From assembly GCA_020072785.1 (NCBI GenBank), contig JAIQGG010000002.1:1116001-1180000 (forward strand): a stretch of DNA of 64,000 nt, read 5' to 3'. The notes under the pieces were generated by a model. It did no database searches, was not told where the DNA came from, and saw only the letters and a program-made list of their open reading frames with translations. Positions 30,065 through 58,501 of this stretch are shown here, piece by piece (position 1 is the first letter of the stretch; each line of letters opens with the position of its first letter). This DNA comes from Terriglobia bacterium (GTDB lineage: Bacteria; Acidobacteriota; Terriglobia; Acidiferrales; UBA7541). Position numbers and translations under genes: made by a program.

Positions 30065-30075
30065 TGTTCTTGTAG

Positions 30076-30096
30076 GGGCACGGCACTGCCGTGCCC
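30076..30096. repeat. 21-nt perfect inverted repeat after mod
   Basis: GGGCACGGCA and TGCCGTGCCC are exact reverse complements around a single C, preceded by TGTAG. The unit starts 12 nt after the mod stop. No T-run follows, so it looks like an interspersed palindromic repeat rather than a terminator. Confidence 0.7.
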
Positions 30097-30129
30097 GCTC
30101 TTTGGTTTTTGTTTTTGCCTTATGTAGAT

Positions 30130-30181
30130 GCCGGGCTTTCGCGTTTTCTGCGTCCCGGCGCTTTTAGCCGGGAAGCCCGGC
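30130..30181. repeat. Nested inverted repeat between mod and res
   Basis: Outer arms are GCCGGGCTT (30130-30138) and AAGCCCGGC (30173-30181). Inner arms are CCCGGC (30154-30159) and GCCGGG (30167-30172). The region could fold as a branched hairpin, as in REP/BIME-type mobile palindromes. Confidence 0.65.
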
Positions 30182-30206
30182 TCTTGGTTGGTCTTTTGCT
30201 GTTGCC

Positions 30207-30233
30207 GTCATTCCGAGCGGAGCGAGGAATCTC
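30207..30233. repeat. Interspersed palindromic repeat, copy just before res
   Basis: The copy begins GTCATTCCGAGCG, continues GAGCGAGGAATCTC, and is related to the copy inside mod. It ends 6 nt before the res ATG. GAGGA within it (30224-30228) is the only Shine-Dalgarno-like sequence for res. Confidence 0.75.
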
Positions 30234-30239
30234 TCTTCG

Positions 30240-33605: not shown

Positions 33606-34406
33606 CTACTCGGATTCCTGCAACGTGTGGATGTGCTGTTCGAGTGCCTGACAATATTCGCGCTCGATTTGCAGCTCGGTCTGCAGCTTTTTCACCAGCA
33701 TCTCCAGGCGCATGATCTCCGAGCGCAGCCGCTGGACCTCATGGCCGGCAGGCGCGGTCGGGCGCTGCGGCATGGGGAAGCTCGCAGGGCGCTGCGAGGG
33801 AGCAGAATGCACCGGCGGCGCGGCCGCCGGAGCGTGCGAGAAAGCGTCCGCGAGGGCGCGGGGCCAGGCCGACTCGCTCGCGTGCGTGGGCGGAGGCGGA
33901 GGAGCATAAGCGGGCGGCGGAGCGAAAAGATTGCTCAGCGCGTGTGGCGCTTGCGCGGATGCGTGCGCGGGCGGCGCGGCCGGGGCTTCCCCTGGGAACA
34001 GAAACGCCTTTACCCGGGCGATGAGCTCCTGCGGCTGAAAGGGCTTGCGGATCAATTCGTCGGCCTTCACGGCCACGGCCCTGTCGGCCACGCTCTTATT
34101 GACCACGCCCGACATCAGCAGCACGGGCGTCGCGCTGTAGAGTGGATTCTCCTTGATCTGACTGCACACGGAATAGCCGTCCTGATCGGGCATGATGACG
34201 TCGGTGATGACCGCGTCGGGAGGCGTGGCCTCGAATTGCGCCAGGGCCGAAGCCGCATCCGCGCAGGTGATGACGTGGATGTTCTCCTTGCGGAAAGCGA
34301 TCTTGATCACTTCGCGCATGGTGGCGCTGTCGTCGATGAAATAGACGGTCGGCGCGCGCTTCACGCCGGGATCTCCGGCGGGCGGCAAGGTAAACGTTTC
34401 GCTCAT
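33606..34406 (-). CDS. Response regulator with Pro/Ala linker and C-terminal coiled coil
   Basis: Protein of 266 residues. The receiver domain is about 18-132, with FIDDS as the acidic pocket, D69 in VITDVIMPD as phospho-acceptor and RKPF near its end. A Pro/Ala/His-rich linker (about 137-210) follows, then a heptad-like coiled coil (about 218-266, RLRSEIMRLEMLVKKLQTELQIE). There is no DNA-binding domain. Receiver-coil proteins such as FrzS act in polar motility control, which is a parallel rather than proof. It is the last gene of the Pil-Chp-like operon; its ATG overlaps the preceding stop (ATGA). Confidence 0.85.
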   Translation of the reverse strand: MSETFTLPPAGDPGVKRAPTVYFIDDSATMREVIKIAFRKENIHVITCADAASALAQFEATPPDAVITDVIMPDQDGYSVCSQIKENPLYSATPVLLMSGVVNKSVADRAVAVKADELIRKPFQPQELIARVKAFLFPGEAPAAPPAHASAQAPHALSNLFAPPPAYAPPPPPTHASESAWPRALADAFSHAPAAAPPVHSAPSQRPASFPMPQRPTAPAGHEVQRLRSEIMRLEMLVKKLQTELQIEREYCQALEQHIHTLQESE

Positions 34407-35176
34407 GGCGCTTCCTTGTCTGCCATGTCGCGCTGGCTCTCGTCGAACTCGCGCATGGCGTCGAGCATCAAGTCGGTCGAGGAACGCAGAACCGTGCGTT
34501 GCCCGGAGCTGGAGCCGTACAGGAACTTGTACACGCCCTCTCCGTTCTGCACGCAGCTCTTCAGTATGTGGATGACGGCTTCGTCGCCGAACAACGCGCC
34601 GCACTCCGCGTGGCAGATCTCCCCGGCATCGAAAAAAATTACCCCGTCGAGCCCGGTGGCGTTGATGTGCAGCGCCCCCGTCTGGCGGGCCTGCACCAGG
34701 AGCTGGATGACGCCGGGAAGATCGTGGTGCGTGAGGCTGCCGCTCAGGCTGGTATCGGCCTGCGGCAGCATCTGCGTGGGCTGGAAGCCCTCGATCTTGC
34801 TGACCAGGAGGCTCTTGATGTGCGCGGCGATGACCGCGGGGCTGCGCTTGCGGTCGATATAGTCCTCGCAGCCCGCCTGGAAAGCCTCCATCAGGGCGCG
34901 CTGGTTGCCGTCGCCCAGAGCGATGACCGGCAGGGTGGCGTTCTTCGGATCGGCATGGACGATCTGCGCGATTTCCAGAGCGCCCATCTCGCGCAGGTTC
35001 GTGGCGCAGAGAATCGCCGCGGGCGTGTCGTACTCGAGCATGGTGAGGGCGTAGGCCGGCTGCGTGGAGCTCACCACATCAAAGCCTTCCTGTTTCAGCG
35101 CGTCCCCCAGGCGCTTCGCGAAATAGACATTCGTGTCGATCAAAAGAATTTTGGGCGGGCGTCCGGGCAGGCTCAT
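34403..35176 (-). CDS. Pseudo-receiver plus DUF4388 (PatA-like) protein
   Basis: Protein of 257 residues. The first 120 residues have a receiver-like fold (ILLIDTNVYFAKRLGDALKQ), but the phospho-acceptor position reads ILCATN, with no aspartate near residue 58. It therefore should not be phosphorylated by the normal route. Residues about 145-235 match DUF4388: SGSLTHHDLPGVIQLL, GALHI and GVIFFDAGEICHAECG. DUF4388 domains occur in PatA-type and type IV pilus-associated regulators. It overlaps the CheW upstream and the receiver-coil gene downstream by 4 nt each. Confidence 0.82.
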   Translation of the reverse strand: MSLPGRPPKILLIDTNVYFAKRLGDALKQEGFDVVSSTQPAYALTMLEYDTPAAILCATNLREMGALEIAQIVHADPKNATLPVIALGDGNQRALMEAFQAGCEDYIDRKRSPAVIAAHIKSLLVSKIEGFQPTQMLPQADTSLSGSLTHHDLPGVIQLLVQARQTGALHINATGLDGVIFFDAGEICHAECGALFGDEAVIHILKSCVQNGEGVYKFLYGSSSGQRTVLRSSTDLMLDAMREFDESQRDMADKEAP

Positions 35177-35652
35177 GGCCGGGCCTCCGGCGCGGGCGCA
35201 ACGCCTTCCGGAGTTGCAAACAACTCGGGCCCCGGGAGGAGATGGTCCAACTGCAACACCTCGATGACATTGCCGGCGTTGGAAAGCCAGCCCTGCACAT
35301 GCGGCGGATGCTCCCCTTCCGCGGCGGTCATCTCCGTGGTAATCAGTTCGCACTCTCCCGTCACCGGGATGGCCACGGTTTCCACGCCTGCGGCGTAGTG
35401 GCGCAAGGCCAGAAGATAGAGGCGCCGGCTGGTCATGCGCCGGCCGGTGAGCATTTCCGAGACGTCGCAGACCGGCACGATGCGCCCGCGGCGCAGGATC
35501 ACGCCTTCGAGTTGCGGGGTGCGGTGCGGGAAGTGAAAGACGCGGCTCGCCGGCACCAGCTCCCCGATGCGTTCGGCCGGCAGCGCAAACTGCCGGTCGC
35601 CGAGCCGCAGGAGCACGAACGACTGTGCGCCGGTTTCGAGTGTCGCGTTCAT
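35173..35652 (-). CDS. CheW-domain protein (ChpC-position)
   Basis: Protein of 159 residues with a single CheW domain: SFVLLRLGDRQFALPAERIGELVP, LEGVILRRGRIVPVCDVSEML, then AIPVTGECELI. As an adaptor it should couple receptor and kinase or compete for them at the membrane array. The ATG at 35652 overlaps the stop of the other CheW gene (ATGA). Two consecutive CheW genes follow CheB, in the position of chpC in the Pseudomonas Pil-Chp cluster. Confidence 0.85.
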   Translation of the reverse strand: MNATLETGAQSFVLLRLGDRQFALPAERIGELVPASRVFHFPHRTPQLEGVILRRGRIVPVCDVSEMLTGRRMTSRRLYLLALRHYAAGVETVAIPVTGECELITTEMTAAEGEHPPHVQGWLSNAGNVIEVLQLDHLLPGPELFATPEGVAPAPEARP

Positions 35653-36329
35653 GCCGGATCCTGCCCGTCCGCGTCCTCCGCGGGGTATTCCATGGCGGCT
35701 TCTTGCAGAACGCCGCTCTCCGAGGATTCGCTTTCCCCGTCGAGCAGCTCCGCTGCGCCGTCGCCTTCCGCGGCGGCCTCTTCTGCCGCTGCGCTTTCCG
35801 GGACCGCTGCAAGCTCCGCCGCCGCGCTTTCCGCCGCGGCTGGTTCGACGCCGGCGTCCAACTGGGCAATTTCCTGCGCGAGCAGCAGGCCGTCGGGATT
35901 CACCACCGGGATTACGGCGTTTTCCATGGTCACGAAGCCGCGATACCAGTTGCGTTCCTCGTTGCAAAAAGCCTGCGGCACCGCTTGCAGCCGCGTGATC
36001 GCCGCCATGCGATCGATGGCATCCACCAGCAACGCTGCACGGCGATTGCGGAACAGGAAAACCAGCGTCGCCTGCGAAGGCGGCAGTCCGAAAAGCGTCC
36101 CGCCATGCACGAGATACAGCGTGCGCTGCCCGCGGCGCACGTGCGAGCGTACCTTGCGCAATCCGGGCTGCTGAATGTCCGCCGCCGCGCTGGCGACGCT
36201 GTCCGCGCTGCGAATTTCCTGCACCACGCTGGCGGAAATGGCAAACAGCTGGCTGCCGATGCGGAACAGGATCATCTGTTCGGGGCGGATCGCCCGGCCC
36301 TTGGCGGCAGGCTGTGACGCAAAATTCAT
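35649..36329 (-). CDS. CheW-domain protein with acidic Ala/Glu-rich tail
   Basis: Protein of 226 residues. Residues 15-155 form a CheW-like domain (MILFRIGSQLFAISASVVQEIR, TLYLVHGGTLFGL, ENAVIPVVNPDGLL). The last 65 residues are low complexity, rich in Ala, Glu, Ser and Asp, and probably disordered. The tail is unusual for CheW and could be a tether or a mimic binding a basic partner. The ATG overlaps the CheB stop by one base (TGATG). Confidence 0.82.
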   Translation of the reverse strand: MNFASQPAAKGRAIRPEQMILFRIGSQLFAISASVVQEIRSADSVASAAADIQQPGLRKVRSHVRRGQRTLYLVHGGTLFGLPPSQATLVFLFRNRRAALLVDAIDRMAAITRLQAVPQAFCNEERNWYRGFVTMENAVIPVVNPDGLLLAQEIAQLDAGVEPAAAESAAAELAAVPESAAAEEAAAEGDGAAELLDGESESSESGVLQEAAMEYPAEDADGQDPA

Positions 36330-37456
36330 CAGCGCGCTCCGACCGGCATGGGGCGGGTCAGTGCGATGACGCGCTTCTCGATCGCCCCGTAAATTTCGTC
36401 AATCGGCAGAACCTGGTCCACGACGTTTAGCTTGATCGCTTCTGCCGGCATGCCAAAGATCACGGAAGTGGCCTCGTCCTGGGCCAGAACCAGCCCGCGG
36501 GCCGTCCGGATGGCTTTGGCGCCCTGTGCGCCGTCGGCGCCCATTCCGGTCAGCACCGCGCCGATGGTCATGGCCCCGGCGTACGCCGCGATGCTTTCCA
36601 TGGAAACGTCGATGCACGGCAGATAGCCGTTGATGCGCCCGCTGATGTCGTCGAGCTGGACGCGGCCCCTCGGCGTGACGCGCAGGTGCTTCGAGCCGGG
36701 GCAGACGTACAGCGTGCCGGTCTGCAGCGCCTCGTTGTGTTCGGCCTCCTTGACGCGGATGCCGGTGAATTCCGCGAGCTGCACTGCGAACTGGGTCGTA
36801 AAAGCCTGCGGCATGTGCAAAACGAGCACGATCGCGGCAGGGAAGTCGCGCGTAAAGCCGGGCGCCAGGCGCATCACGGTGGCGGGGCCGCCGGTGGACG
36901 CGCCGATGACCACGACCGGAAAGCGCTGATCGGCGGAAGCCGCCAGAACCGGATGCTCGCCCGCCCCGGGTTTTGCGGTGTCCTCCCCGCCGCTGGCTGG
37001 CACCGGAACGCGTTTCGCGCGGGCCACCGTGCGCACCACGCGCACCTTGGCGGCCATGCGCACCTTGCGCAGCAGGTCTTCCTTGACGCTGTGCATGTCC
37101 AGGTCGATGCCGCTCGAGGGCTTGGAGACGAACTCGATCGCGCCGAGTTCGAGCGCGCGCAGCGTTCCGCCAGTGCCTTCCTTCGACTCCGACGTGACGA
37201 TCACGATCGGCCGCGGGTTAGAGGACATGATCTTTTCCGTGGCTTGCAATCCGTTCATGTGCGGCATGTTGATGTCCATGGTGATGACATCAGGCTGCAG
37301 CGACTCCGCCAGAGCGACAGCCTCCCGGCCGTCCTTGCACTGACCGATCACCTGGAAGTTCGGTTCGCTGCAGAAAATGGTCTCCAGCACCTTACGCATG
37401 AAGGTGGAATCGTCCACGATCAGGAGGCGAATCTTTTTGTCCGCTTCTGCGCTCAT
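36329..37456 (-). CDS. cheB: Chemotaxis protein-glutamate methylesterase CheB (ChpB position)
   Basis: Protein of 375 residues from the ATG at 37456. The receiver (8-125) has VDDS and D61 in ITMDINMPHMNG; the methylesterase domain has GASTGGP, VLVLHMPQAF and TGMGADGAQGAKAI, carrying Ser, His and Asp of the catalytic triad. It removes methyl groups from receptor glutamates when phosphorylated. It is 7 nt after the CheA gene and in the order CheA-CheB-CheW seen in Pil-Chp operons. Confidence 0.93.
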   Translation of the reverse strand: MSAEADKKIRLLIVDDSTFMRKVLETIFCSEPNFQVIGQCKDGREAVALAESLQPDVITMDINMPHMNGLQATEKIMSSNPRPIVIVTSESKEGTGGTLRALELGAIEFVSKPSSGIDLDMHSVKEDLLRKVRMAAKVRVVRTVARAKRVPVPASGGEDTAKPGAGEHPVLAASADQRFPVVVIGASTGGPATVMRLAPGFTRDFPAAIVLVLHMPQAFTTQFAVQLAEFTGIRVKEAEHNEALQTGTLYVCPGSKHLRVTPRGRVQLDDISGRINGYLPCIDVSMESIAAYAGAMTIGAVLTGMGADGAQGAKAIRTARGLVLAQDEATSVIFGMPAEAIKLNVVDQVLPIDEIYGAIEKRVIALTRPMPVGAR

Positions 37457-37463
37457 TGTCCGC

Positions 37464-40457
37464 TCACGCCACCGGCACCGTATGTTGCTGCGCTTCGGTG
37501 CCAATCAGCTGCTCGACCGCATGGATCAATTGATCTTCCTGCACGGGCTTGGTCAGAAAGGCCACGGCGCCTTCCTTGATGGCGCGTTCGCGGTGTTTGG
37601 CGCCCGCGCGCGAAGTCACGACCATCACGGGGATGCGCCGCGTGGAAGGACTCTGGCGCAATTGCGCCATCAGCTCGTAGCCGGTCATGCGCGGCATTTC
37701 CAGATCGGTGATGACCAGATGGCATCCTTGCTGGGCGATGAGCTCGGCGGCCTCCAGACCGTCGGAGGCAAGTTTCACGCGATAGCCGGCCTTCTCGAGC
37801 ATGCGTCCGACGAATTTGCGCACGCTGATGGAATCGTCCACGATGACCACCACACGCTCCTGTTGCACCCGGTCGATGGCGTCGGAAGGGATGGAGCCGC
37901 GGGCGATGGCCGCGGAACCCGGCGCGAAGACCCGCGCGGCGCTGGCACTGACCTGCACGGAGCGGCGTTCGCTCGGATCGCTGGCGATCATGCGGTTGAG
38001 GTCGATGAGCAGAATGAGGCTGCCATCCGGAGCGATGGTGGTGCCGGAGAAGAGTTTCACCCGGCGCAGATACTCGCCCAGGTTCTTGATGACGATTTCG
38101 TCCTTGCCCAGAACTTCTTCGATAACCAGCCCGATCTGGCGGTCGCCGGCATTGGCGACGACCATGCGGAAATAGCCGTTCACAGGCTCGAGCGGCGGCA
38201 GACCCAGATAGGAATCGAGGCGCACGACTTCGGTGACCACGTCGCGCACCTTGGTCAGCAGTTTGCCCCCGACATCATCGATCTCGTCCGCGCGCAGGCG
38301 GCGGATCTCTTCGACCACGGCCAGCGGCAGAGCGAAGATGGTTGTGCCGCAACGCACAAAAAGCGCCGGGGAGATGATCAGGGTCAGAGGCACCTTGAGC
38401 GTGAAGCGTGTGCCTTCGCCCTGCTTGCTGTAAATTTCGATTTCGCCATTGAGCGTGGTGAGATTGGCGCGCACCACGTCCAGGCCCACCCCGCGCCCGG
38501 CCAGCTCGGTTTTGGCCGAGGCCGTCGAAAAGCCCGGGTGGAAGAGCATCTCCCGCAGGTCGCGCTCCGTCAGCCGCCCAGCGGTTTCCGGCGAGACCAG
38601 CCCGCGGTCGATCGCGCTTTGCTTCACGCGCTCGTAATTGATCCCGCTTCCGTCATCCCCGACCTCGATGTAGATGTGATTGCCGCGATGATACGCGCGC
38701 AGGAAAACCTTTCCGGTTTCCGGCTTCCCGGCGGCAGCGCGGTCCTCCACGGATTCGATGCCGTGCGCCACGGCGTTGCGCACCAGGTGCACCAGCGGGT
38801 CGGCAATCTGCTGAATAATGTTGTTGTCCAGCTCCGTATCTCCGCCGGTCATCTCCATTTCCACGAGTTTCCGGGCGGATTTTCCGGCGTCCCGCACCAC
38901 GCGGGTGAGCATGGAGAAGAGCGTCTCGATGGGCACCATGCGCGCCGCGGTAATTTCATCCTGCAGGCGGTGCGCCAGTTTGGTGAATTCGTCGATATCT
39001 CCTTCGACGCGGCCAATGAAGCCTTCGAGCTGCGAGAGGACTTCGTTTACGTCGGCGGAAATCTCCGTCATGGAGCGCGACAGGATGTTGACGTCGTCGT
39101 AGCGGTCCATTTCCAGCTCGCTGAAGTCCGAGAGGAACGAGGACTTGTCGCCCGCTGCAAAGCCGGAAATTGGATTCGCGTCCGGCGGGCCGCCGCGGCC
39201 GCTGGGGAAGGACGTGCCCAGGCGAGCGGAGCTGACCCGGTTGAATTCGTATTTTTCCTGGAACTCCGTGACTTTGCCGTGCAGCCGCTCTTTCGAGAAA
39301 CCCAGCGTGTCCACGAGCTTCTGCAGCTCTCCGACGCGGCCCACCATGCGCGTGCGGTTGATCACCAACTCGCCGACGTTGTTCATCAGTCGGTCGAGGC
39401 GCCCCAGCGAAATGCGCACGGACTTTGCCGTGGGCGAGCCCTGCGGGGAGGGGTTTTTCTTCTGCCGCGGCGCCGGCTTCCCAAGCGGCTCGGCGGACGC
39501 GGTTTCCACCGCCTGCGCGGGGCTTGCGGCGTCCGGCGCGGCCTCCTCTTCTTCGGCCTCTTCGGGAGCAAATTCGGCAACGCGCGCGAGCAGGGCGTCC
39601 ACGCCGGCGCGCATGTCGGCTTCGCCTGCCCACTGCTGGTGCAGGGTCTTGTTCAGGACGTCCACGGATTCCAGGCAAACGTCCACGACGCTGGGAGAAG
39701 CTTCCAGCAGGCCGTCGCGCAGGCGCCCGACCAGATCCTCGATGCGGTGCGCGATGGCGCCCAGGCGGCGCAGGCCGACCTGCGCCGCGGAACCCTTCAC
39801 CGTGTGAATGGCGCGGAACAGGCGGTTGATCTCTTCCGGATTGCGCGAGCCTTCGAGCGCCAGCAGGCAATCGCTGATGATCTGCAGATGCTCTTCCGCT
39901 TCCGGCTGGAAGAATTCGAGAATTTCAGGGGGGATTTCGTCATCGGCCGGCAAACGGTCGAAATAGGAGCCCGTCGCGGCGCGCTCTTCCATTTCGCAGG
40001 CCTGCGCGAGGGAGGGAACCGGCTCGTGTTGCGCCTCGGCCTGCAAGTTGAGCGGCGGCGGCTCGCTGGGAAAAGCAAAGCGATAGCGCTCTTTGAACGC
40101 GGCGATATCCTCGGAGACCTCGTTGCCCGTGTCGCTGATCTCCAGCAGGTTGCTTTCCAGCAGGGAGATGGCATCGGAGAGGAATTCGGTCAGCGGCCCG
40201 TAGAGATCCGAGCCCAGCGGGGCGTTGAGCGCGTACTGGAAAATGTGCGCCAGCTTCCCGGCGACTTCCGAGAAGCGCGGAAAGCCGTAGCTGGCCGACG
40301 TGCCGGCGAGCGTGTGCGCAGCGATGTACAGGCGCTCGATGTCCTCGCGCTGCACGCCGGTCTCTCCGAGAATGCTCGAGTACTCCCGCAGATACTGGAG
40401 GTGCTCCGAGGCTTCCTGGAGAAAGAGATCCACGGCTTCGCGTTCGGGAGTGCTCAC
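37464..40457 (-). CDS. cheA: CheA-type hybrid histidine kinase with two Hpt and a REC domain (ChpA/PilL-like)
   Basis: Protein of 997 residues from the GTG at 40457, overlapping the CheR stop (GTGA). There are two Hpt domains with H48 (AAHTLAGTSASYGF) and H218 (AIHTVKGSAAQVGL). A linker and dimerisation region follow (GELVINRTRMVG), then the kinase domain (HLVRNAVAHGIE, GDDGSGI, GRGVGLDVV), a CheW-like domain (VPLTLIISPALFVRC) and a C-terminal receiver (about 872-990, IVDDS, VITDLEMPRMTG). This layout is that of ChpA/PilL in type IV pilus twitching systems, with fewer Hpt domains than Pseudomonas ChpA. Confidence 0.94.
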   Translation of the reverse strand: MSTPEREAVDLFLQEASEHLQYLREYSSILGETGVQREDIERLYIAAHTLAGTSASYGFPRFSEVAGKLAHIFQYALNAPLGSDLYGPLTEFLSDAISLLESNLLEISDTGNEVSEDIAAFKERYRFAFPSEPPPLNLQAEAQHEPVPSLAQACEMEERAATGSYFDRLPADDEIPPEILEFFQPEAEEHLQIISDCLLALEGSRNPEEINRLFRAIHTVKGSAAQVGLRRLGAIAHRIEDLVGRLRDGLLEASPSVVDVCLESVDVLNKTLHQQWAGEADMRAGVDALLARVAEFAPEEAEEEEAAPDAASPAQAVETASAEPLGKPAPRQKKNPSPQGSPTAKSVRISLGRLDRLMNNVGELVINRTRMVGRVGELQKLVDTLGFSKERLHGKVTEFQEKYEFNRVSSARLGTSFPSGRGGPPDANPISGFAAGDKSSFLSDFSELEMDRYDDVNILSRSMTEISADVNEVLSQLEGFIGRVEGDIDEFTKLAHRLQDEITAARMVPIETLFSMLTRVVRDAGKSARKLVEMEMTGGDTELDNNIIQQIADPLVHLVRNAVAHGIESVEDRAAAGKPETGKVFLRAYHRGNHIYIEVGDDGSGINYERVKQSAIDRGLVSPETAGRLTERDLREMLFHPGFSTASAKTELAGRGVGLDVVRANLTTLNGEIEIYSKQGEGTRFTLKVPLTLIISPALFVRCGTTIFALPLAVVEEIRRLRADEIDDVGGKLLTKVRDVVTEVVRLDSYLGLPPLEPVNGYFRMVVANAGDRQIGLVIEEVLGKDEIVIKNLGEYLRRVKLFSGTTIAPDGSLILLIDLNRMIASDPSERRSVQVSASAARVFAPGSAAIARGSIPSDAIDRVQQERVVVIVDDSISVRKFVGRMLEKAGYRVKLASDGLEAAELIAQQGCHLVITDLEMPRMTGYELMAQLRQSPSTRRIPVMVVTSRAGAKHRERAIKEGAVAFLTKPVQEDQLIHAVEQLIGTEAQQHTVPVA

Positions 40458-41338
40458 GCGTGGCCCTCCGTCACAAGCTCCGGCTGCGGCAGGTCGCCCG
40501 CCGCCGGCTTGCGGTACAGGATGCATTCGTTCAGCACGATGGCCTGAAACTTGACGGGAATCTTGGACAACGATTCCGAGTGGCCGAGGAGCAGGTATCC
40601 GCCGGGCTCCAGCGTGTCGTAGAAGCGCTGGATCAGGGCGCGGCGGCGCTCTTCGGTGAAATAGATCATGACGTTCATGCAGAAGATCATGTCCATGCGG
40701 CCCATATAGACGGCCGAGGCCAGATTCATCTGCGCGAAGGTGACCAGCTTGCGGATGCGGGGCTTTACCTGGTAGCCCGCGCCGGTCTTGGTGAAGTGTG
40801 CCGCGAGCTGGTCCGCAGTGACGCTGGCAATTCTCTGCCCGCTGTACACGCCGGTCTCGGCGATCTTCAGCGCCTGGCGCCCCACATCCGTGGCCATGAT
40901 CTCGACGTTCCAGGCCTCCGCGGAATTGAGGGTCTCGGCGATGGTGATGGCGATGGAGTAGGGCTCTTCACCGGTGGAACACCCCGCGCTCCACACCCGC
41001 AAAGTCCGCGGACTGTTCCAGAATTTCTTGACGTGCAGCTCCGGCAGGACGCGCTTGCGCAGCGCGTCATACACCGCGGGGTAGCGGAAGTAGGAGGTTT
41101 CCTGCGTGAGCAGCCGCTCCAGCAGCCCTTCGTATTCGACGTTGGAGCGCCGCGCGGCCCGCAGCAGGTCCGAACCGCGGGCAAAGCCCTTCTGCTGCAT
41201 CTGTTCGAGCACCCGGGTGGAGACGAAGCGCAGGCGCGATTTGTCGAAATGGATTCCCGTGCGTTCCTCGATCAGCAAGCGGATCTCGGAGAGCTCGTGG
41301 TCCGTCAATTCCGGCTTCGGATTGTGGCGTTCGGTCAT
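40454..41338 (-). CDS. cheR: Chemotaxis protein methyltransferase CheR (PilK position)
   Basis: Protein of 294 residues. The N-terminal helical domain has LIEERTGIHFDKSRLRF. The SAM domain has LRVWSAGCSTGEEPYSIAI, EIMATDV, FCMNVMIYF and GGYLLLGHSESL. It methylates receptor glutamates. ATG at 41338 is preferred to a GTG at 41347. It lies between the MCP and CheA genes, the place of pilK in Pil-Chp clusters. Confidence 0.94.
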   Translation of the reverse strand: MTERHNPKPELTDHELSEIRLLIEERTGIHFDKSRLRFVSTRVLEQMQQKGFARGSDLLRAARRSNVEYEGLLERLLTQETSYFRYPAVYDALRKRVLPELHVKKFWNSPRTLRVWSAGCSTGEEPYSIAITIAETLNSAEAWNVEIMATDVGRQALKIAETGVYSGQRIASVTADQLAAHFTKTGAGYQVKPRIRKLVTFAQMNLASAVYMGRMDMIFCMNVMIYFTEERRRALIQRFYDTLEPGGYLLLGHSESLSKIPVKFQAIVLNECILYRKPAAGDLPQPELVTEGHA

Positions 41339-41389
41339 CGTCGGCACGTTTCCGCGCTGGCTTTCTCACCAGGGCAGGAAGTCGTTGTC

Positions 41390-42829
41390 TTACCGAAGCG
41401 CGCCCGCCGGGACCGCCGGCTCGGGCGCCTCCCCGGCGGCGGGTTTGCCCGGTGCGCGAAACTGCGCCAGCGCTTCATTGAGCTGGTCGTTGAGTTTCAC
41501 CAGCTGGCTGACCGTGCTGACCGTCTGCCGGACGCCCTGCGAAGTCTGGCGCGTAATTCCGGAGATGATCTGCATGGCGTGGGCCACGCCTTCCGTGCCG
41601 CGCACCTGCTGTTTGGAAGCCAGGGAAATTTCCTGGACGAGTTCCGCCGACTGGCGGACCACGCTGGAAATCGCGTCCAGAGCGCGTCCCGCCTGATCGG
41701 CGAGTTGCGCCCCGCCCTCCACTTCCTTGGTGCCTTCTTCCATGACCACCACGGCTTCGTTCGTCTCGGCCTGAATGGCCTTGATGAGCGCGGCGATGTC
41801 CTTGGTGGCGCTGCGCGAGTGCTCGGCCAGCTTGCGGACTTCGTCGGCGACCACCGCGAATCCGCGGCCCGCTTCCCCGGCGCGCGCTGCTTCGATGGCC
41901 GCGTTGAGGGCCAGCAGGTTGGTCTGCTCGGTGATGTCGTTAATCACGTTGATGATTTCCGAAATCTCCAGAGAACGGTCACCGAGAGACTTGATCTTCT
42001 TGGCGGTGGCCTGCACGGAGGCGCGGATGCGCTGCATGCCTTCGAGGGTGTCGCGCACGGCCCGGTTGCCCTGTTCGGCGGCGTCCAGGGCGCGGCGCGC
42101 GGCTTCGGCGCTGGCTTCGGCGTTGTTGGACACCTGCTTCATGGAGACCGTCAGCTCTTCCACGGCCGAGGAGGTGTTGGTGATTTCCTGGTCCTGCTGG
42201 GTCGCTCCGGCCTGCATCTCATCGGCAGCCGTGAGAATGTTGTGGGCGCTGCCGCTGACTTCCATGGCGGCCTTGCGCACGCGCTCGAGCACCTTGGAGA
42301 AGTTGTCGAGCATGTAGTTGATGGAGTCCACCACGTTGCCGAGGGCGTCGTTGGTGACCTTGCCGCGCAGCGTCAGGTCGCCGCGCGCCACCTGGTTGAT
42401 GACCGCGAGCAGGTCGGTGATGCTGCGTTGCAGCAGCTCACTGGCTTCCTGATTGGAGGTGGCTTTGGATACGCGCAGGACGGCGCGGTTGAGATTCTCC
42501 GCGATATAGCCGAGGTCGTCATTCCCGGAGACTTCCACGCGCGCGCGCGGATCGCCGACAGCCAGGCGCTCGGAAAATTCCGCGAGATCCTGCACTGGGG
42601 TGACAATCCGCTTGCCCAGCGTCATAGCCAGCGCCAGTGTCGTGCCCAGGGCCAGCAGCACGGCGATCAGCACCATTCCGCCCGCGCCACCGGACATGGC
42701 GGCGAACTCGAAGATAGCCGCCCCGCCGGCCGTGCGGCCCGCGTGATAGGCCAGCAGCAGGACGCCGAACAGCGCCACTCCGGTCCACAGGATCAGCATC
42801 CAGATTGTGGAACTCAAACGACCTTTCAT
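41390..42829 (-). CDS. Methyl-accepting chemotaxis protein with minimal periplasmic part (PilJ-like)
   Basis: Protein of 479 residues from the ATG at 42829, preceded by a perfect GGAGGAAGTT site. Two close membrane helices (about 10-30 and 46-70) leave only about 15-20 residues outside, so there is no periplasmic ligand domain. Two HAMP-like segments follow (about 72-125 and 160-215), then the cytoplasmic signalling domain with the conserved tip [19 protein letters not shown]. It probably senses an intramembrane or protein-partner signal, for example pilus status. It occupies the pilJ position. Confidence 0.9.
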
Positions 42830-42897
42830 AACTTCCTCCCGTTTCCCTGTGGACGCCCGGCCCCCCGGGCCGGCATCCATGACCGATGCAAATTCGT

Positions 42898-43455
42898 TCA
42901 GATTGCAGGCCCCGGAAAAACTTCCAGCAGGCGCCGCAAATCGATCATCAGCGCCAGGCGGTCGTCGTGCCGGAGCATGCCGATACAGTGCGGCACGTTT
43001 TCCGGCGCGTGCTCCAGCATGTCCTCGGAAGCCGCGGAATAGGTGCCCACGACTTCGTCGGCGGCAATCCCGATACGCACATCCTCGTGATGCGCGTCGC
43101 CGCGCAGCGAGGCCACGACCACGTGTTTCGGCAGAAGACCCGAACGGCGGCCTTCGGTCATGGCGATATCAATCAGCGGCACAATCGCGCCGCGCAGATT
43201 GAAAATACCCATCAGGTACGCCGGCCCCAGCGGCAGCCGAGTCACCAGCGGAAATTCCACGACCTCTTCCACGTCCAGCACGGGCAGGCAGAAACGCTCG
43301 CGTCCGCTGCGAAACACGCAGTGCTGCTGCTCCGGCGGGCTGTGCTCGATCGGCCCGGCGGCTTCCAGCAGGTCGCCGGTGTCCACGTCGCCCGATACCG
43401 GTGTGAGCTGGTAGCCGTCTTCCATCGTTTCGAATTGGTTTGTCAGGTCGCTCAT
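42898..43455 (-). CDS. cheW: CheW-domain adaptor (PilI position)
   Basis: Protein of 185 residues: a 45-residue N-terminal leader, then a CheW domain with [40 protein letters not shown] and [14 protein letters not shown]. It should link the neighbouring MCP and CheA. The start overlaps the stop of the upstream receiver gene (ATGA). A GC hairpin without a T-run (42855-42870) lies between it and the MCP gene. Confidence 0.9.
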
Positions 43456-43820
43456 GCAAACCGCCGAACCGCGCGCAACAACTCTTCCCGCGTAAAAGGC
43501 TTGGTGATGTAATCGTCCGCGCCTTGCTGCTGGCCCCAGAACTTGTCGCTGGCCGTGCCCTTGGAGGTCACCAGAATCACCGGGATGCCGCGGAACTCTG
43601 CGTTGTTCTTCAGTTCGCGGCAGAGTTGAAAGCCGTTGCGGTCCGGCATGACCACGTCCAGCAGGATGACGCAGGGACGCTCGCTGGTGATGGTCTCCTC
43701 GACCTTGTGCGGGTCGCTCAGACCGACGGGGCGGTAACCTTCATGCACGAGCAGATCCTGCATGAGTCGCACCTGCGACGGCGAGTCGTCCACGATCAGA
43801 ATTTTCTTGTCCACGCGCAC
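43452..43820 (-). CDS. Single-domain response regulator (PilG/PilH position)
   Basis: CheY-like receiver of 122 residues: LIVDDSPS acidic pocket, D55 in VILLDVVMPDRNG, the switch Thr/Ser in VILVTSKG and the lysine in ITKPFTREELL. GTG at 43820 is the longest start; a GTG at 43814 has the better distance (9 nt) to AGGAG, giving 120 residues. It lies directly before the CheW/MCP/CheR/CheA genes, like pilG-pilH. Confidence 0.9.
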   Translation of the reverse strand: MRVDKKILIVDDSPSQVRLMQDLLVHEGYRPVGLSDPHKVEETITSERPCVILLDVVMPDRNGFQLCRELKNNAEFRGIPVILVTSKGTASDKFWGQQQGADDYITKPFTREELLRAVRRFA

Positions 43821-43851
43821 AAACTCCTGAGAGTAATCCGCACCTTAGAGA

Positions 43852-43867
43852 AGCACGTCGGCGACCA
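43852..43867 (-). promoter_or_regulatory. Possible sigma-54 type element upstream of the receiver gene
   Basis: Minus-strand TGGTCGCCGACGTGCT has GG and GC separated by 10 nt. It lies 32 nt upstream of the 43820 start. No CGTCTCA site lies nearby, and GG-N10-GC is not rare in GC-rich DNA, so this is weaker than the other two sigma-54 candidates. Confidence 0.25.
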
Positions 43868-43946
43868 GCCAGGGCACTCTTTCGACCATCCGTGCTCTCT
43901 TGTGGAAGTAGTGTACATTCAAAGAGATACGGGAAAGCGCTGGCCC

Positions 43947-44630
43947 TCAACCCCGCCTCGAGCTCCCCGCTGGGCTCACTTCCGTCTCACCTTGAGATAC
44001 TTTCTCAGCCTCCCGAATCTCGCTTGCCAGCGATGAGAATCGCTGCATGATCTCGTTGATGCGCAAGGCCATGCTGTGCATGGTCTTGATCTGGTCGAGG
44101 GATTGCGTGGAAAGCTGCCCGGGCTCGAGCAGCAGCAATTCCGCATTGCCCAGCACGCTGGTTAGGGCATTGTTGAGGCTGTGGCGCATCTCCAGCATGT
44201 AGCGGCCCAGAGTGGCGTGATAGGCGTTCTCGGAAGCCTCGCGCTGCGACTGCCGCGCTCTGCGCAGTGCTTCCGTGCGCCGCAGGGATTCCCCGGCGAC
44301 GAGCAGCAGCGTCTGCGCCCAGTCTTCGCGCAGGGGAATGTGTACCAGGCGCGGATAGCGCGCGCGGAGTTCGGCGAGTTCCCGCGGGTCGCCCCGCACG
44401 CAGAGAATCACCGCCGCGACGGAGTCCAGAGTGTGCAGGATGCCCGTGAGGTTTGCGTCGCGCAGCGGCCCGATCACCACCAGGTCCCAGGAGGGCCGTT
44501 GCTGGCGCTTCCACAGTTCGCTACTTAGAATGGTCAGGGCTGGCACCTGCCGCTCGCCCTGCCAGCACGCTGTCAGGAGCCGCGCGAAATCATTTTCATC
44601 GGTAAGAATGACGACGTTTGTGTCTCGCAA
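43947..44630 (-). CDS. HisKA-like dimerisation/phosphotransfer protein without kinase domain
   Basis: Protein of 227 residues, start TTG at 44630. The N-terminal 115 residues look like a degenerate receiver (VVILTDENDFARLL, WDLVVIGPL) without phospho-acceptor. The C-terminal part (about 130-205) is a HisKA-type helical hairpin, with H150 in YMLEMRHSLNNALTSVLGNAELLLL. There is no HATPase domain and the gene stops soon after. It may act as a phosphotransfer or dimerising scaffold between the kinase and the regulators of this operon. I know no named family for this layout. Confidence 0.72.
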   Translation of the reverse strand: MRDTNVVILTDENDFARLLTACWQGERQVPALTILSSELWKRQQRPSWDLVVIGPLRDANLTGILHTLDSVAAVILCVRGDPRELAELRARYPRLVHIPLREDWAQTLLLVAGESLRRTEALRRARQSQREASENAYHATLGRYMLEMRHSLNNALTSVLGNAELLLLEPGQLSTQSLDQIKTMHSMALRINEIMQRFSSLASEIREAEKVSQGETEVSPAGSSRRG

Positions 44631-44683
44631 CGAAGAACCCGCTCCCCATCGAGTGTCCGGCGCAATGCCGGGAGTGCCGGCGG

Positions 44684-46204
44684 CTACAGCTTCTCCGCTT
44701 CATCCAGCGCGGAGATCAACCGCTTCGTGCTCATGCTCAAGTTGACCGCCACTTCCGTGTCTTTCGCCTGCTTGGCGATGTCCACGCGTTCCTGCAGGCG
44801 GGAAGCCTCGACGCGCGCAATGCTGATGGCTCGCTCGAGGCTGGAGGCATTCCCGGTTTCCTTGGCTGCTTCCAATGCCGTGGTGACCAGCGCGCGGGCC
44901 ACCACCGCCCGGCGCAGATCTTCGGCGGAGGGGCCATCTTCGCTGACGAACGCGGTGACTTCCCAGGAGGGCAGCAGTACCCGGGCGGTCCCCAGGGAGA
45001 TGGTCGTCATCGAGCGGCCGCGGGTGGGTGGCGCTGCGATGAGTTGCTCCCAGATCTTCTCCATGCAGGTTTCGAAATCCAGCTCGGGGATGAGTGCTGC
45101 TGCAGGCTTTTCCCTGCGCGCGGCCGGCAGGTCGCTTTTCTGTGCCGCGGGCTTCGCACTGTCCGGCTTGGCGGCCGGTGCAGCCGGTGGCGAACCTTTC
45201 TTCGCCGCCGCGGGATGGGCGGCCGGCGGAACTGTTTTCGCAGCCGGTGCGGCGGCTGCGGGGGCGGGCTTGCCGCTCACGCGAGCCATGGCGCGCTCCA
45301 CGTCGCTGCGCAGGGCCAGCAGTTTTTCAAAGGCCTGGTTGACGGTGCGCTCGGTGTAGTCCTTCTGAAAAGGCTGCTTCCATTCGTCGGCGATCTGCCG
45401 GATCCTGGCCAGCGGCTCGGACGCGCTGAGGCCGAACTTCGTGCAATCCACCGTGCGCTCATGGGCCGCTTCTAGCTGGGTCAGCCCGCAGCGAATGGCG
45501 GTCAGGTCGGCATGCATCAGCTCGATCAGGGTCCTCCGCAGCATGAAATTGAAACGGATGAAGGCTAGCAGGGCGGAGGGATCGTAGAACATGTTGCCGG
45601 CGGAATCCTTCACGCGGCGGCCCTGCTCGATGAAATTGGTTTTCAGCATCGCGCCGAGGCTGCGCAGCGTGCCCAGGGTCTCGATGATGGTTTCGAGCGG
45701 CGCGCACCATTCCAGGGGAGCGGAGTCGACCTCGCCCAGGACCGGTTTCATCACCTGGGCCACGTCCTCGAGTTCGATTTTTGCGTGATAGGTCTTGGGC
45801 GGCGCGCACAGCGCGAAATACTGCACCAGCAGAAAATCGATCTTGTGGCGGTCGGTGTCGGACTTGATGGCCTTGCGCAGGTGCCGCAGGATCATCGCCC
45901 GCAGGCCGCCTTCATTGGCATTCAGCGAGGTCATCTGCAGCAGGTGGCGAAGCTGGTGGACCTGCACCTGGGTATCCACGGTATTGAGCCAGACGGTGAC
46001 CTGGTCGAAGATCTCGAGGCTGACGGTTTCCGGAAGAGCGGTCTTGTCCGGACCGAACAGCGGCTTTATCCCCACCTGCTTGGCGATGGCCATGTAGATC
46101 GGGAAGAGCGAGCGGGCTTCCGCCCACTGCCGGTCGCGCCCCGGATTGACGCGGGGGGCAGGCTTGCCGGCCGGCGAGGGCAGGGTTCTGGAAACAGTGG
46201 TCAC
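44684..46204 (-). CDS. Uncharacterised protein of 506 residues in the chemosensory operon
   Basis: I do not recognise a family. The start is GTG at 46204, overlapping the PilZ-like stop (GTGA). Residues about 25-300 are mostly helical, with FPIYMAIAKQVGIKPLF, LRHLLQMTSLNANEGGLRAMILRHLRK and FIRFNFMLRRTLIELMHADL. A long Ala/Pro/Lys-rich linker spans about 312-385. The last 115 residues form a second domain (ISLGTARVLLPSWEVTAF, then a coiled-coil-like helix). There is no signal peptide or membrane helix. Coupling to the PilZ-like gene and location before the receiver gene suggest a cytoplasmic adaptor of the array. Confidence 0.72.
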   Translation of the reverse strand: MTTVSRTLPSPAGKPAPRVNPGRDRQWAEARSLFPIYMAIAKQVGIKPLFGPDKTALPETVSLEIFDQVTVWLNTVDTQVQVHQLRHLLQMTSLNANEGGLRAMILRHLRKAIKSDTDRHKIDFLLVQYFALCAPPKTYHAKIELEDVAQVMKPVLGEVDSAPLEWCAPLETIIETLGTLRSLGAMLKTNFIEQGRRVKDSAGNMFYDPSALLAFIRFNFMLRRTLIELMHADLTAIRCGLTQLEAAHERTVDCTKFGLSASEPLARIRQIADEWKQPFQKDYTERTVNQAFEKLLALRSDVERAMARVSGKPAPAAAAPAAKTVPPAAHPAAAKKGSPPAAPAAKPDSAKPAAQKSDLPAARREKPAAALIPELDFETCMEKIWEQLIAAPPTRGRSMTTISLGTARVLLPSWEVTAFVSEDGPSAEDLRRAVVARALVTTALEAAKETGNASSLERAISIARVEASRLQERVDIAKQAKDTEVAVNLSMSTKRLISALDEAEKL

Positions 46205-46542
46205 GGCTGAACCATCCAATCGCAAGAGCCTTTCAGAAAGCGCACGGCCACAGCCTTCGAACCCTCGTGGTATTGCACTGCGATCACCGCAGCCTCTGCC
46301 GTTTTTCCGGTGCCGTTCTGTTCGACGCGGATGCGCTCGTCGAACTCGAGCGGCAGAGTGCAGCAGAAGATGGCGTGTTCGCTGGCGCTATACTCCACGA
46401 CGATCCGTTCCCGGAGACGTGCCTGGCCCGGCCGCAACGCGGTAATCTGCACCGCAATGCGAACCGGCAGGGCGCGTGGAAAAAAGCGCGCCAGCTGCTC
46501 CGCACAACTGCGTGCGGTCTCCGCGGCCAGTATTCCACCCAT
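46201..46542 (-). CDS. PilZ-like domain protein (degenerate), first gene of the Pil-Chp-like operon
   Basis: Protein of 113 residues from the ATG at 46542. LPVRIAVQITALRPGQARLRERIVVEYSASEHAIF, LEFDERIRVEQ and AAVIAVQYHEGSKAVAVRF have the strand pattern of PilZ barrels. The c-di-GMP motifs RxxxR and (D/N)xSxxG are not clear, so binding may be lost. It would be a protein-interaction form of PilZ, as in the type IV pilus PilZ protein. A sigma-54 type promoter lies about 104 nt upstream. Confidence 0.55.
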   Translation of the reverse strand: MGGILAAETARSCAEQLARFFPRALPVRIAVQITALRPGQARLRERIVVEYSASEHAIFCCTLPLEFDERIRVEQNGTGKTAEAAVIAVQYHEGSKAVAVRFLKGSCDWMVQP

Positions 46543-46645
46543 GCGTTTCACGTGGTCTCTCGCTTTACGTATCGTGCCGCTCGCCGCCCGGCCGCGTTCG
46601 AAACACACGAACCCGGCTTGGGCAGAGAAGCACCGCAGAGAAGCG

Positions 46646-46661
46646 TGCACGCTGCGCGCCA
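46646..46661 (-). promoter_or_regulatory. Sigma-54 (-24/-12) promoter of the Pil-Chp-like operon
   Basis: Minus-strand TGGCGCGCAGCGTGCA fits TGGCACG-N4-TTGCA with two changes, and has the required GG-N10-GC spacing. It points at the PilZ-like gene (start 46542), and two tandem CGTCTCA sites lie about 80-110 nt upstream. No better sigma-70 promoter is visible in this gap. Confidence 0.55.
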
Positions 46662-46742
46662 AAGTTCCAGATCCGGAAAAATTCATTAACTGGCTGAAAG
46701 GGCAAGGCTTAGAGAAGAGCTTTGGCAGGACTGTGGCTCACG

Positions 46743-46770
46743 CGTCTCAGGATGACACAGCGGCGTCTCA
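46743..46770. promoter_or_regulatory. Tandem enhancer-like sites CGTCTCA, 21 nt apart
   Basis: CGTCTCA occurs at 46743-46749 and 46764-46770, two helical turns apart, with a related GTCTC at 46772-46776. They lie upstream of the sigma-54 type promoter at 46646-46661 and are shared with the intergenic region at 51026-51185. This is the layout expected for an NtrC-type activator site. Confidence 0.5.
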
Positions 46771-46828: not shown

Positions 46829-48244
46829 TCAAGAGGCCGGGTCGGCGGCGGAGGTCACACCGGCGGCGGACTTTACCCCGATATTGTAACGTTTCAGCTT
46901 GCGATAGAGCGTGGCCCGGCTGATGCCGAGCATCTTGCCGGCCAGGGCTTTATCACCGTGCGCCTGTTCGAAAACGCGCACGATGGTCATGCGCTCCATT
47001 TCGGCCAGGGCCATGGTGGACAGGGCGGCATCGGCCGGCGCGGCGCTGCTGCCGTCGGCGGAGGCCTGCTCGGAGCGGATCGCCGGCGGAAGGTCGCCGC
47101 TGTCGATCGTGCGGCGGTCGCCCAGGGTCACGGCGCGGGCGACACAGTTTTCGAGCTCGCGAACGTTCCCCGGCCAATCGTACTGCAGCAGGCTCTTCAT
47201 CGCCGCGGCAGTCACCTGGATGTTCTCGCCGGGGGCGAAGCGGTCCAGAAAATGGTGCACGAGCATGGGAATATCCGAGCGGCGCTCGCGCAGGGAAGGG
47301 ATGTGCACGGTCACGACATTCAAGCGGAAATAGAGATCCTTCCGGAAGGTGCCGTCGCGATAGGCGGCTTCGAGGTCGCGGTTGGTCGCGGCAATGACCC
47401 GGACGTCGGTGGACACGCGGTCGTTGCTGCCGACGGGCCGCACTTCCTTTTCCTGGAGAACGCGCAGGAGTTTGGCCTGCATTTCCAGAGGCAGCTCGCC
47501 GATCTCGTCGAGGAAAATGGTGCCGCCGTTGGCCGCCTGGAAAAGGCCGGCCTTGGACTTGATGGCGCCGGTAAAGGCGCCCTTCTCATAGCCGAACAGC
47601 TCGCTTTCCATCAGCGTGGGCACCAGGGAGCCGCAGTCCACGGCGACGAAAGGGGTCTGAGCCAGCGAACCGCGGAAATGAATGGCCCGGGCCACCAGTT
47701 CTTTTCCCGTGCCGCTCTCGCCGAATATCAGCACCGGTGTGCGCGTGTCCTGCAGGCGGGAGATCATGCGCAGCACGTCCTGGATCTTGGCCGAAGTGCC
47801 CACGATTCCGCCCAGGCTTTCTTCGGCGTTTACACGCTCGCGCAAGAACTGGTTTTCCGCGACCAGGCGCACCTTCTCGGCCATGCGCTGCAGCAGCAGG
47901 CGCAGCTTCTCCACGCGGAAGGGCTTCTCGATGTAATCGTAGGCCCCGATCTTCATGGCGTCCACGGCCGATTCAATCGAGCCGTGCCCGGTCATGATGG
48001 CCACCTCGGTGCGCGGCAGTATGGCGCGGGCTTGGCGCAGCAGTTCCACGCCGGAGAGACTGGGCAGCTTGAGGTCGGTGAGAATCAGGTCGGGGGTGGC
48101 CGTGTCCAGCCTGGCGAGGGCTGCCTCCGCGCTCTCCGCCTCGGAGCAGGTAAAACCGAGGGTTTGGCCAATGGTCATGCACAGACGGCGGATGCTCTGT
48201 TCGTCGTCCACAATCAACAAACGGATTTTCAGATCGTCGCTCAT
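46829..48244 (-). CDS. NtrC-family sigma-54-dependent response regulator
   Basis: Protein of 471 residues. The receiver (7-120) has VDDEQ and D57 in LILTDLKLPS. The AAA+ domain (about 145-375) has Walker A GESGTGKE, GAFTGA in the sigma-54 contact loop, Walker B TIFLDEIGELP and the WPGNVRELEN lid. The Fis-type helix-turn-helix is near the C-terminus (DKALAGKMLGISRATLYRKLKRY). It should activate sigma-54 promoters when phosphorylated. It is the last gene of a kinase-receiver-regulator operon; candidate sites and promoters flank that operon on both sides. Confidence 0.95.
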   Translation of the reverse strand: MSDDLKIRLLIVDDEQSIRRLCMTIGQTLGFTCSEAESAEAALARLDTATPDLILTDLKLPSLSGVELLRQARAILPRTEVAIMTGHGSIESAVDAMKIGAYDYIEKPFRVEKLRLLLQRMAEKVRLVAENQFLRERVNAEESLGGIVGTSAKIQDVLRMISRLQDTRTPVLIFGESGTGKELVARAIHFRGSLAQTPFVAVDCGSLVPTLMESELFGYEKGAFTGAIKSKAGLFQAANGGTIFLDEIGELPLEMQAKLLRVLQEKEVRPVGSNDRVSTDVRVIAATNRDLEAAYRDGTFRKDLYFRLNVVTVHIPSLRERRSDIPMLVHHFLDRFAPGENIQVTAAAMKSLLQYDWPGNVRELENCVARAVTLGDRRTIDSGDLPPAIRSEQASADGSSAAPADAALSTMALAEMERMTIVRVFEQAHGDKALAGKMLGISRATLYRKLKRYNIGVKSAAGVTSAADPAS

Positions 48245-48639
48245 GGTTTTCCGAAGGTCTTCTCCACGACAGAAAGTAAGTGCTGGACTCGAAAAGGCTT
48301 TTCGATGCAGGGCGTGTCGCTGTTCTCGAGCAGTTCTTGGGTTTCGCTGTTGGCCGTATCCCCGCTGATCAGAATGATGCGCGCCGCCAGGTCCGGGCGG
48401 TTCTGGCGGATCCAGGCGTGCACTTCGGCGCCGTTGACGCTGCCGGGCATGCGAATGTCCGAAATGACGCCCCTGTAGTGGCCGTTCACAAGCTGCTGCA
48501 ATCCTTCCACGCCCGAGCAGACGGGAACGACGGAGTAGCCCCGGCGTTCCAGCGCGGCGCGGACGAACGCGATCACCGCAGCCTCGTCCTCGATCAGCAG
48601 AATGGGCAGGGAAGTGCGCGCCGCGGCGCTTACGCTCAT
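48241..48639 (-). CDS. Single-domain response regulator between kinase and NtrC-type regulator
   Basis: Receiver-only protein of 132 residues: LLIEDEA acidic pocket, D61 in GVISDIRMPG, Ser switch in IILISGD and lysine in CIEKPF. It overlaps the kinase stop and the regulator start by 4 nt each (ATGA). It could be a phosphate sink or a second output of the same kinase. Confidence 0.9.
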   Translation of the reverse strand: MSVSAAARTSLPILLIEDEAAVIAFVRAALERRGYSVVPVCSGVEGLQQLVNGHYRGVISDIRMPGSVNGAEVHAWIRQNRPDLAARIILISGDTANSETQELLENSDTPCIEKPFRVQHLLSVVEKTFGKP

Positions 48640-53793: not shown

Positions 53794-53812
53794 TGTATCC
53801 GGAGCTTGTGTG

Positions 53813-54289
53813 ATGGAAAAAGATCTCCAGGTTGTGGGCTTTCGCATCGGGGACGAGACGTACGGCGTGCGCATCTCCGCCGTGCGCGAGATCGTGCGCG
53901 TTCCGGACATCACCATCGTCCCCAACGCCCCGGAGATGATCGAAGGGGTGATCAATCTTCGCGGAAAAATCATCCCCGTGATGGACCTGCGCAAACGGTT
54001 CCGGCAGGCCGAGATTCGCGCGGATAAGAAAAACCGCATTCTGGTGGTCGAACTCAATGACCGGCTCCTGGGGCTGATTGTCAATTCCGCGTCGGAAGTG
54101 CTGAAGCTTCCGCCATCGGAGATCGAAGCGCCGGGGAATATGTTCTCCGACGGGGAATCGGGATATGTGACGGGTGTGGGCAAACTGAACGGGCGGCTGA
54201 TCATTCTGCTGGATATCGCAAAACTGCTGCACCGCCCGGAATTCGGGCGCATCGAGGAGGCCGCGGAACCCGTTGCCAGCATGCGCTGA
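53813..54289 (+). CDS. cheW: CheW chemotaxis adaptor protein
   Basis: Protein of 158 residues from the ATG at 53813, with GGAG 9 nt upstream. VVGFRIGDETYGVRISAVREIVRVPDIT, MIEGVINLRGKIIPVMDLRKRF, VVELNDRLLGLIVNSASEVL and GKLNGRLIILLDIAKLL are full CheW signatures. It couples the upstream MCP to the CheA at 55249. Confidence 0.95.
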   Translation: MEKDLQVVGFRIGDETYGVRISAVREIVRVPDITIVPNAPEMIEGVINLRGKIIPVMDLRKRFRQAEIRADKKNRILVVELNDRLLGLIVNSASEVLKLPPSEIEAPGNMFSDGESGYVTGVGKLNGRLIILLDIAKLLHRPEFGRIEEAAEPVASMR

Positions 54290-54346
54290 CGCGGGGCAGT
54301 TGCCCCGTGTTGTGGCCGACGGCCGGAGCCGCCCCAGGAATCCCCT

Positions 54347-58472: not shown

Positions 58473-58501
58473 ATCGGTGCCTGGGGAATAAGGAGAAGGC
58501 C

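Follow-up and report, generated by a model that had tools for sequence, protein, structure and literature searches.

A Pil-Chp-like chemosensory operon of Candidatus Acidiferrales that is probably related to type IV pili and apparently has its own sigma-54 promoter

The locus described here lies in a 64,000-nucleotide stretch of a Terriglobia bacterium genome (assembly GCA_020072785.1, contig JAIQGG010000002.1, positions 1,116,001 to 1,180,000; hereafter the window), which is part of contig C2 in a genome of 3.73 Mb and 98.9% completeness. It holds a 13-gene operon on the minus strand (33606-46548), built around a set of chemosensory (che) genes that an earlier note, made from the letters alone, had likened to the Pil-Chp system of Pseudomonas with five added genes. 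All 13 open reading frames were recovered at their place and strand by an ORF check and by Pfam, gene starts were fixed by comparison with 20 relatives, and the majority of the genes abut or overlap. When 20-kb regions from 20 sampled same-genus genomes were searched with the window genes by tblastn, all 20 showed an identical order, namely histidine kinase, NtrC-family activator, the small protein that had been labeled PilZ-like, a 506-residue protein, a HisKA-like protein, CheY, CheW, methyl-accepting chemotaxis protein (MCP), CheR, CheA, CheB, CheW, CheW, receiver (REC)-DUF4388 and REC-coil. The named contigs from this genus are mostly Acidobacteria gp2 or Candidatus Acidiferrum metagenome-assembled genomes. 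Contigs from other genera retain the order to their ends, including ones whose 506-residue protein is only about 47% identical, and gene lengths are very stable, with CheR at 294 and the HisKA-like protein at 227 residues in all 20 relatives. Since the 13 genes and the upstream kinase and activator genes are collinear in every same-genus genome sampled and on the other-genus contigs, chance is excluded, and the 13-gene operon is confirmed as real.

Read in the direction of transcription (all operon genes and their upstream regulators lie on the minus strand), the chemosensory core consists of a CheY-like single receiver in the PilG/PilH position (43452-43820; Pfam Response_reg, 1.8e-25), a CheW in the PilI position (42898-43455; CheW, 1.2e-21), an MCP in the PilJ position (41390-42829), a CheR in the PilK position (40454-41338; CheR, 9.6e-58), a CheA in the ChpA position (37464-40457), a CheB in the ChpB position (36329-37456; CheB_methylest, 3.3e-56, plus REC), a divergent CheW-like protein (35649-36329; CheW, 2.3e-9) and a second CheW-like protein in the ChpC position (35173-35652; CheW, 1.9e-14). 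Pfam gave the domains that the earlier note had named for these che genes, and the Pil-Chp-like order has a direct counterpart in an annotated Pseudomonas plasmid cluster with the order response regulator (RR)-CheW-MCP-CheR-CheA-CheB. Collinearity with pilG/H-I-J-K-chpA-B-C held against an annotated P. aeruginosa plasmid cluster and an A. baumannii cluster. The likeness to the P. aeruginosa system thus covers the order RR-CheW-MCP-CheR-CheA-CheB-CheW, with a CheA that carries several histidine phosphotransfer (Hpt) domains and a REC, as well as a PilJ-like, 40H-type signaling domain in the receptor and the presence of type IV pilus genes in the genome. The two systems differ in that CheA has two Hpt domains here vs. 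eight or more in P. aeruginosa, the receptor here is without the PilJ periplasmic domain, and a single stand-alone CheY takes the place of PilG and PilH, with a second active receiver fused to a coiled coil. The operon described here also has two downstream CheW genes, three extra genes at its 5′ end and two at its 3′ end, and a sigma-54-type promoter with an adjacent activator gene. Scans for Rfam families and tRNAs across the window came back empty.

The MCP was predicted in the earlier note to have no ligand domain, and this holds in the window and in all 20 relatives, where only about 15-20 residues form the external loop between two hydrophobic segments. On the cytoplasmic side, a HAMP domain is followed by a second HAMP-like unit and the signaling domain, whose hairpin aligns without gaps to that of A. 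baumannii PilJ and is 14+14 residues longer than in shorter, 36H-like receptors. The 40H heptad class was inferred from this comparison with PilJ and is not exclusive to type IV pilus (Tfp) systems. The genome encodes three CheA and three MCP proteins. Because an MCP gene lies in the same neighborhood as each CheA gene, the array probably has one dedicated receptor. The third CheA and third MCP genes are located at G000:C9:30114-37792, where the CheA gene comes after a stand-alone receiver gene and the terminal part of a gene for an NtrC-type activator.

The CheA protein is composed of two Hpt domains, each with a histidine that is invariant in the 10 rows compared, followed by an extended dimerization domain, HATPase, CheW and a C-terminal REC, with no hit to a P2 domain. 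According to a 2023 survey, CheA proteins with multiple Hpt domains plus REC are predominant in the Tfp class and are present also in the class of alternative cellular functions (ACF) (PMC10782961). Reference CheAs were taken from plasmid-collection records and comprised A. baumannii ChpA-type, Pseudomonas plasmid Chp-type, Allocoleopsis, Deinococcus, flagellar Burkholderia and Komagataeibacter, and Cupriavidus proteins, the last taken as Wsp-type by the CheR-TPR of its cluster; a DNA-similarity search for an E. coli CheA reference gave no match. An F..LExDxY hairpin in the extended dimerization domain is common to the window clade and the A. baumannii ChpA-type, cyanobacterial and Deinococcus CheAs, and none of the flagellar or Wsp-type references showed it; the cyanobacterial Pix/Tax/Hmp systems, which control type IV pili in characterized cases, share with the operon a CheA-REC bearing this hairpin as LEMDRY. 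In a tree of the CheA core, the closest CheA found was that of Deinococcus, which is sister to the window clade (98/97). Approximately unbiased (AU) tests rejected a flagellar grouping of CheA (p 5e-5), and FliM is absent from the genome. A Wsp-type ACF grouping was also rejected (p 0.013, against two Wsp-type references). A single clade of the window CheAs with three Tfp references and Deinococcus was not rejected (p 0.144), although the clade itself was unrecovered in the tree. With the flagellar and Wsp-type groupings rejected and this one retained, the Tfp class is therefore favored, not proven. The assignment is favored by the domain architecture and the MCP type, but the CheA tree leaves the strict Tfp class unsettled.

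The operon ends with two genes that may form its output. The first (34403-35176) encodes a pseudo-receiver joined to a DUF4388 (PATAN-type) domain (DUF4388, 3.8e-13), in which the phospho-acceptor Asp is replaced in 13/13 rows. The second (33606-34406) encodes a Pfam-supported receiver with a Pro-rich linker and a short coiled coil, and here the alignment showed that the phosphorylation residues, catalytic Asp and Lys, are invariant in 13/13 rows. A pseudo-receiver-DUF4388 gene and a receiver gene also directly follow the related CheA gene in the Deinococcus megaplasmids (D. radiodurans DRR11 plasmid 3 and D. radiophilus pRadio1), with pairwise E values to the window proteins of 1e-12 and 1e-27, respectively. 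The 3′ pair is therefore not lineage-specific, and of the five extra genes proposed to be so, only the three at the 5′ end look it. The Deinococcus cluster shares the order RR-CheW-MCP-CheA (multi-Hpt, REC)-pseudoREC-DUF4388-RR with the operon. It differs in having no annotated CheR or CheB, in having two or three MCPs, in being without the three 5′ genes, and in its last receiver, which has a weak Roadblock/LC7-like (MglB-like) C-terminus (E 0.006-0.065; L114 12575-13354 and L121 12561-13319) in place of the coil. In cyanobacteria, where DUF4388/PATAN is likewise joined to a receiver, a DUF4388(PATAN)-receiver gene opens the Allocoleopsis che cluster, and the Pfam DUF4388 model also matches the PATAN-position domain of the cyanobacterial regulator; there the PATAN domain precedes a normal receiver and the gene is 5′, whereas in the operon DUF4388 comes after a dead receiver and the gene is 3′. 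In Synechocystis, PilB1 and PilC are interaction partners of the PATAN regulator PixG (PMC12288463), and this analogy is the main mechanistic lead for an output on the pilus motor. The receiver-coiled-coil architecture also recalls a gliding or polarity system that works without pili, in which the receiver-coil protein would be a polarity factor like FrzS or AglZ, and genes for PATAN proteins are at times found close to those for MglA/MglB (PMC4316618). We regard this as very improbable: the receiver of FrzS is a pseudo-receiver (PMC11580455), whereas the catalytic residues are kept here, and the coil is short.

The pilus reading implied that type IV pili are encoded in the genome, and PilB, PilT, PilC, PilS, PilR and two pilins were indeed found by a search set that excluded PilM/N/O/Q. 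Several points nevertheless weigh against assigning the array to pili. The pil genes are about 0.36 Mb from the che operon, on the same contig and not adjacent to it. PilT was found in 62/62 genomes with this CheA and in 28/33 without it, counts that ignore kinship, and the co-occurrence is weak evidence because PilT is also present in those 28 genomes lacking the system. The CheA-core tree places neither the gammaproteobacterial nor the cyanobacterial Tfp references with the window clade, the ACF class is represented by two Wsp-type references only, and our literature search found no experiment in this lineage. In one alternative, the operon encodes a Wsp- or Frz-like array of the ACF type, and its output is control of transcription, polysaccharide or second messengers instead of pili. 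Multi-Hpt CheA-REC proteins occur in that class too (PMC10782961), the pil genes are not beside the operon, the receiver-coil and pseudo-receiver proteins recall Frz-type effectors, and the class borders are blurred, since the tree joins A. baumannii ChpA, with weak support, to the Wsp-type rows. Wsp-type systems further share with the operon the C-terminal REC of CheA and CheR/CheB adaptation. They differ from it in the TPR-bearing CheR, the TPR being missing here, and in the dimerization hairpin, and the rejection of the Wsp-type CheA grouping, the PilJ-like receptor and the DUF4388 partner argue against this alternative as well. The output of Wsp-type systems is a diguanylate cyclase, and the operon has no GGDEF or other enzymatic output gene. 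On balance we consider an ACF-type array improbable, and the Pil-Chp-like array of Candidatus Acidiferrales is probably Tfp-related. Within that reading, an array that controls pili mainly for DNA uptake or adhesion, and not for surface motility or sensing, is a sub-case that we hold possible without favoring it. It is compatible with a literature search that found no paper on pili in this lineage. Against it, though not decisively, the adaptation enzymes together with several response regulators point to dynamic control and not to a simple on-off switch.

The three 5′ genes encode the proteins that look specific to the lineage. The first gene (46201-46548) encodes a small protein that is conserved in relatives. 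It had no Pfam match, and only 1/16 family members hit PilZ (E 0.18); the alignment of the family lacks the RxxxR and (D/N)xSxxG PilZ motifs, and comparison with PDB sequences and with profiles of PilZ proteins from the relatives gave nothing significant. The PilZ-like label is thus without support from any of these comparisons, and the protein may be a very divergent member of the PilZ fold. The second gene (44684-46204) encodes the 506-residue orphan, in which the alignment and a structure model delineate a helical N-terminal domain, a disordered Pro/Ala linker and a very conserved C-terminal domain, with no strongly hydrophobic segment. The note had called it unknown, and no Pfam family, PDB sequence or clear fold matched it; Foldseek with VIA-align returned only designed or generic helical proteins, mostly over residues 367-506, with the N-terminal domain barely covered. 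A FimL-like relation to the CheA Hpt region was considered and gave no signal. The family is found in 68/95 genomes of the order (64 without four distant partial matches) and this CheA in 62/95; on the set of 64, both are present in 61 genomes, they are discordant in 4 and both are missing from 30, again without regard to kinship. Several genera of the same family are without both. Together with the synteny in 20/20 same-genus genomes, these counts support the expectation that the accessory genes occur together with the che genes in this order. Distant homologs of the N-terminal domain were seen outside che loci, as a tandem pair with truB-like/guaB-like flanks (L059 9100-11856) and as another copy near a sigma factor-like gene (L057 9385-10812). 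The third gene (43947-44630) had been described as HisKA-only, and a HisKA-like domain without ATPase is suggested by its Pfam score (E 1.5e-5; 25.4 bits, just below the curated cut-off of 26.9; no HATPase), with the presumed acceptor H150 in 15/16 members. The model (pLDDT 71, moderate) adds an N-terminal part with a receiver-like fold ahead of a long hairpin like that of a dimerization and histidine phosphotransfer (DHp) domain. Structural matches, of modest similarity, include the hybrid response regulator LvrB, which spans most of the protein (Z 8.3, rmsd 7.7 over 211 residues, a Z of a size that can be generic), and the DHp domains of CpxA and ERS1. The protein thus looks like a pseudo-receiver plus DHp without ATPase. 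An NCBIfam search of the accessory proteins added no assignments.

The intergenic DNA upstream of the first gene is divergent, and only short blocks in it are conserved, namely TGAGAC half sites and the motif TTGGC(N7)GTGCA. The GG/GC spacing of this motif is that of a sigma-54 -24/-12 element (TTGGCGCGCAGCGTGCA, 46646-46662), and the motif was found in 33/33 genomes, as compared with 0.5% of upstream regions after shuffling. An alignment of 21 same-genus sequences had been viewed when the pattern was chosen, and the 12 other-genus contigs among the 33 serve as an independent check. Since the sigma-54 consensus alone occurs at chance in a window-wide search, only the conservation of the element counts. 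The first TGAGAC half site pairs with CGTTTCA as an enhancer-like dyad, TGAGACG-N4-(C/T)GTNTCA (46753-46770), and a further TGAGAC half site lies at 46744-46749. In nearly all 33 relatives the two TGAGAC sites are 20-22 bp apart and the first is 106-109 bp before the -24/-12 element. From this conservation, the operon apparently has its own dedicated sigma-54 promoter. The promoter is adjoined by the gene for an NtrC-family sigma-54 activator with a receiver (46829-48250; Sigma54_activat, 6.1e-69; REC; HTH_8), which is syntenic in 20/20 genomes and is the likely, putative regulator of the operon. Beyond it lie a stand-alone receiver (48241-48639; Response_reg, 1.5e-17) and a GAF-PAS histidine kinase identified by Pfam (48636-51002, start unrefined), the latter also syntenic. 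In 7/10 genomes searched, the exact dyad occurs once, at this promoter; one genome (G018) has one extra site, and the window genome carries a variant of the dyad. This near-uniqueness suggests a one-promoter regulon for the adjacent activator.

Further genes flank the operon and its regulators. A second, divergent chemosensory cluster with the order MCP-CheW-CheR-CheA-CheB-CheY-CheX lies on the plus strand (51787-59457) and is syntenic with the first across genera, though the genome is without FliM; in many of the named contigs its MCP2-CheW2-CheR2-CheA2 genes are found divergently upstream, as in the window. Two true PilZ domains are encoded beside its CheX end (59530-59742, minus strand, and 60521-60808, plus strand; Pfam E 3e-7 and 5e-12). 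Downstream of the operon and convergent to it is a pair of plus-strand genes (27419-33047) that resemble a type III restriction-modification methyltransferase and a helicase, as read from sequence motifs alone, and GC is lower there (58%).

Taken together, we think it likely that the locus encodes a Pil-Chp-like array that controls type IV pilus activity and whose genes are transcribed together, as an operon, from a sigma-54 promoter of their own. The promoter function, signaling steps and pilus target that we infer are as follows. The local kinase and the NtrC-family activator would act on the TGAGAC sites to turn on the operon. As the receptor has no external domain, its signal would probably come from a partner in the membrane or the pilus machinery, or be read through its own cytoplasmic stalk. 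The receptor would then drive CheA autophosphorylation, tuned by CheR/CheB methylation, and both CheY and the receiver-coil protein would receive phosphate from the two Hpt histidines, while the receiver of CheA would act as a brake. These outputs, aided by the pseudo-receiver-DUF4388 protein, would act on the pilus motor (PilB/PilC) in the manner of cyanobacterial PixG, and the 506-residue and pseudo-receiver-DHp proteins may be cytoplasmic scaffold or phospho-relay partners. A bolder version of this sigma-54-switched pilus array, which we offer only tentatively, is that the 506-residue protein, with the pseudo-receiver-DHp protein, would be the signal input or a polar scaffold and thus a new Tfp-like input module, while the pseudo-receiver-DUF4388 and receiver proteins would be an old pilus-output module of Acidobacteriota, Deinococcota and, in another arrangement, Cyanobacteria.

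Our literature search found no paper describing a pilus-type chemosensory system in soil Acidobacteriota. The array described here is nearly invariant in its genus. It combines a single CheA with a single receptor that has no ligand domain and adds three uncharacterized proteins, and in this simple one-receptor setting it becomes possible to test how the state of the pilus is conveyed to the array. The conserved promoter offers a handle on when the array is made, and the recurrence of the DUF4388 regulator in such clusters of three phyla suggests that pilus control has a general output module.

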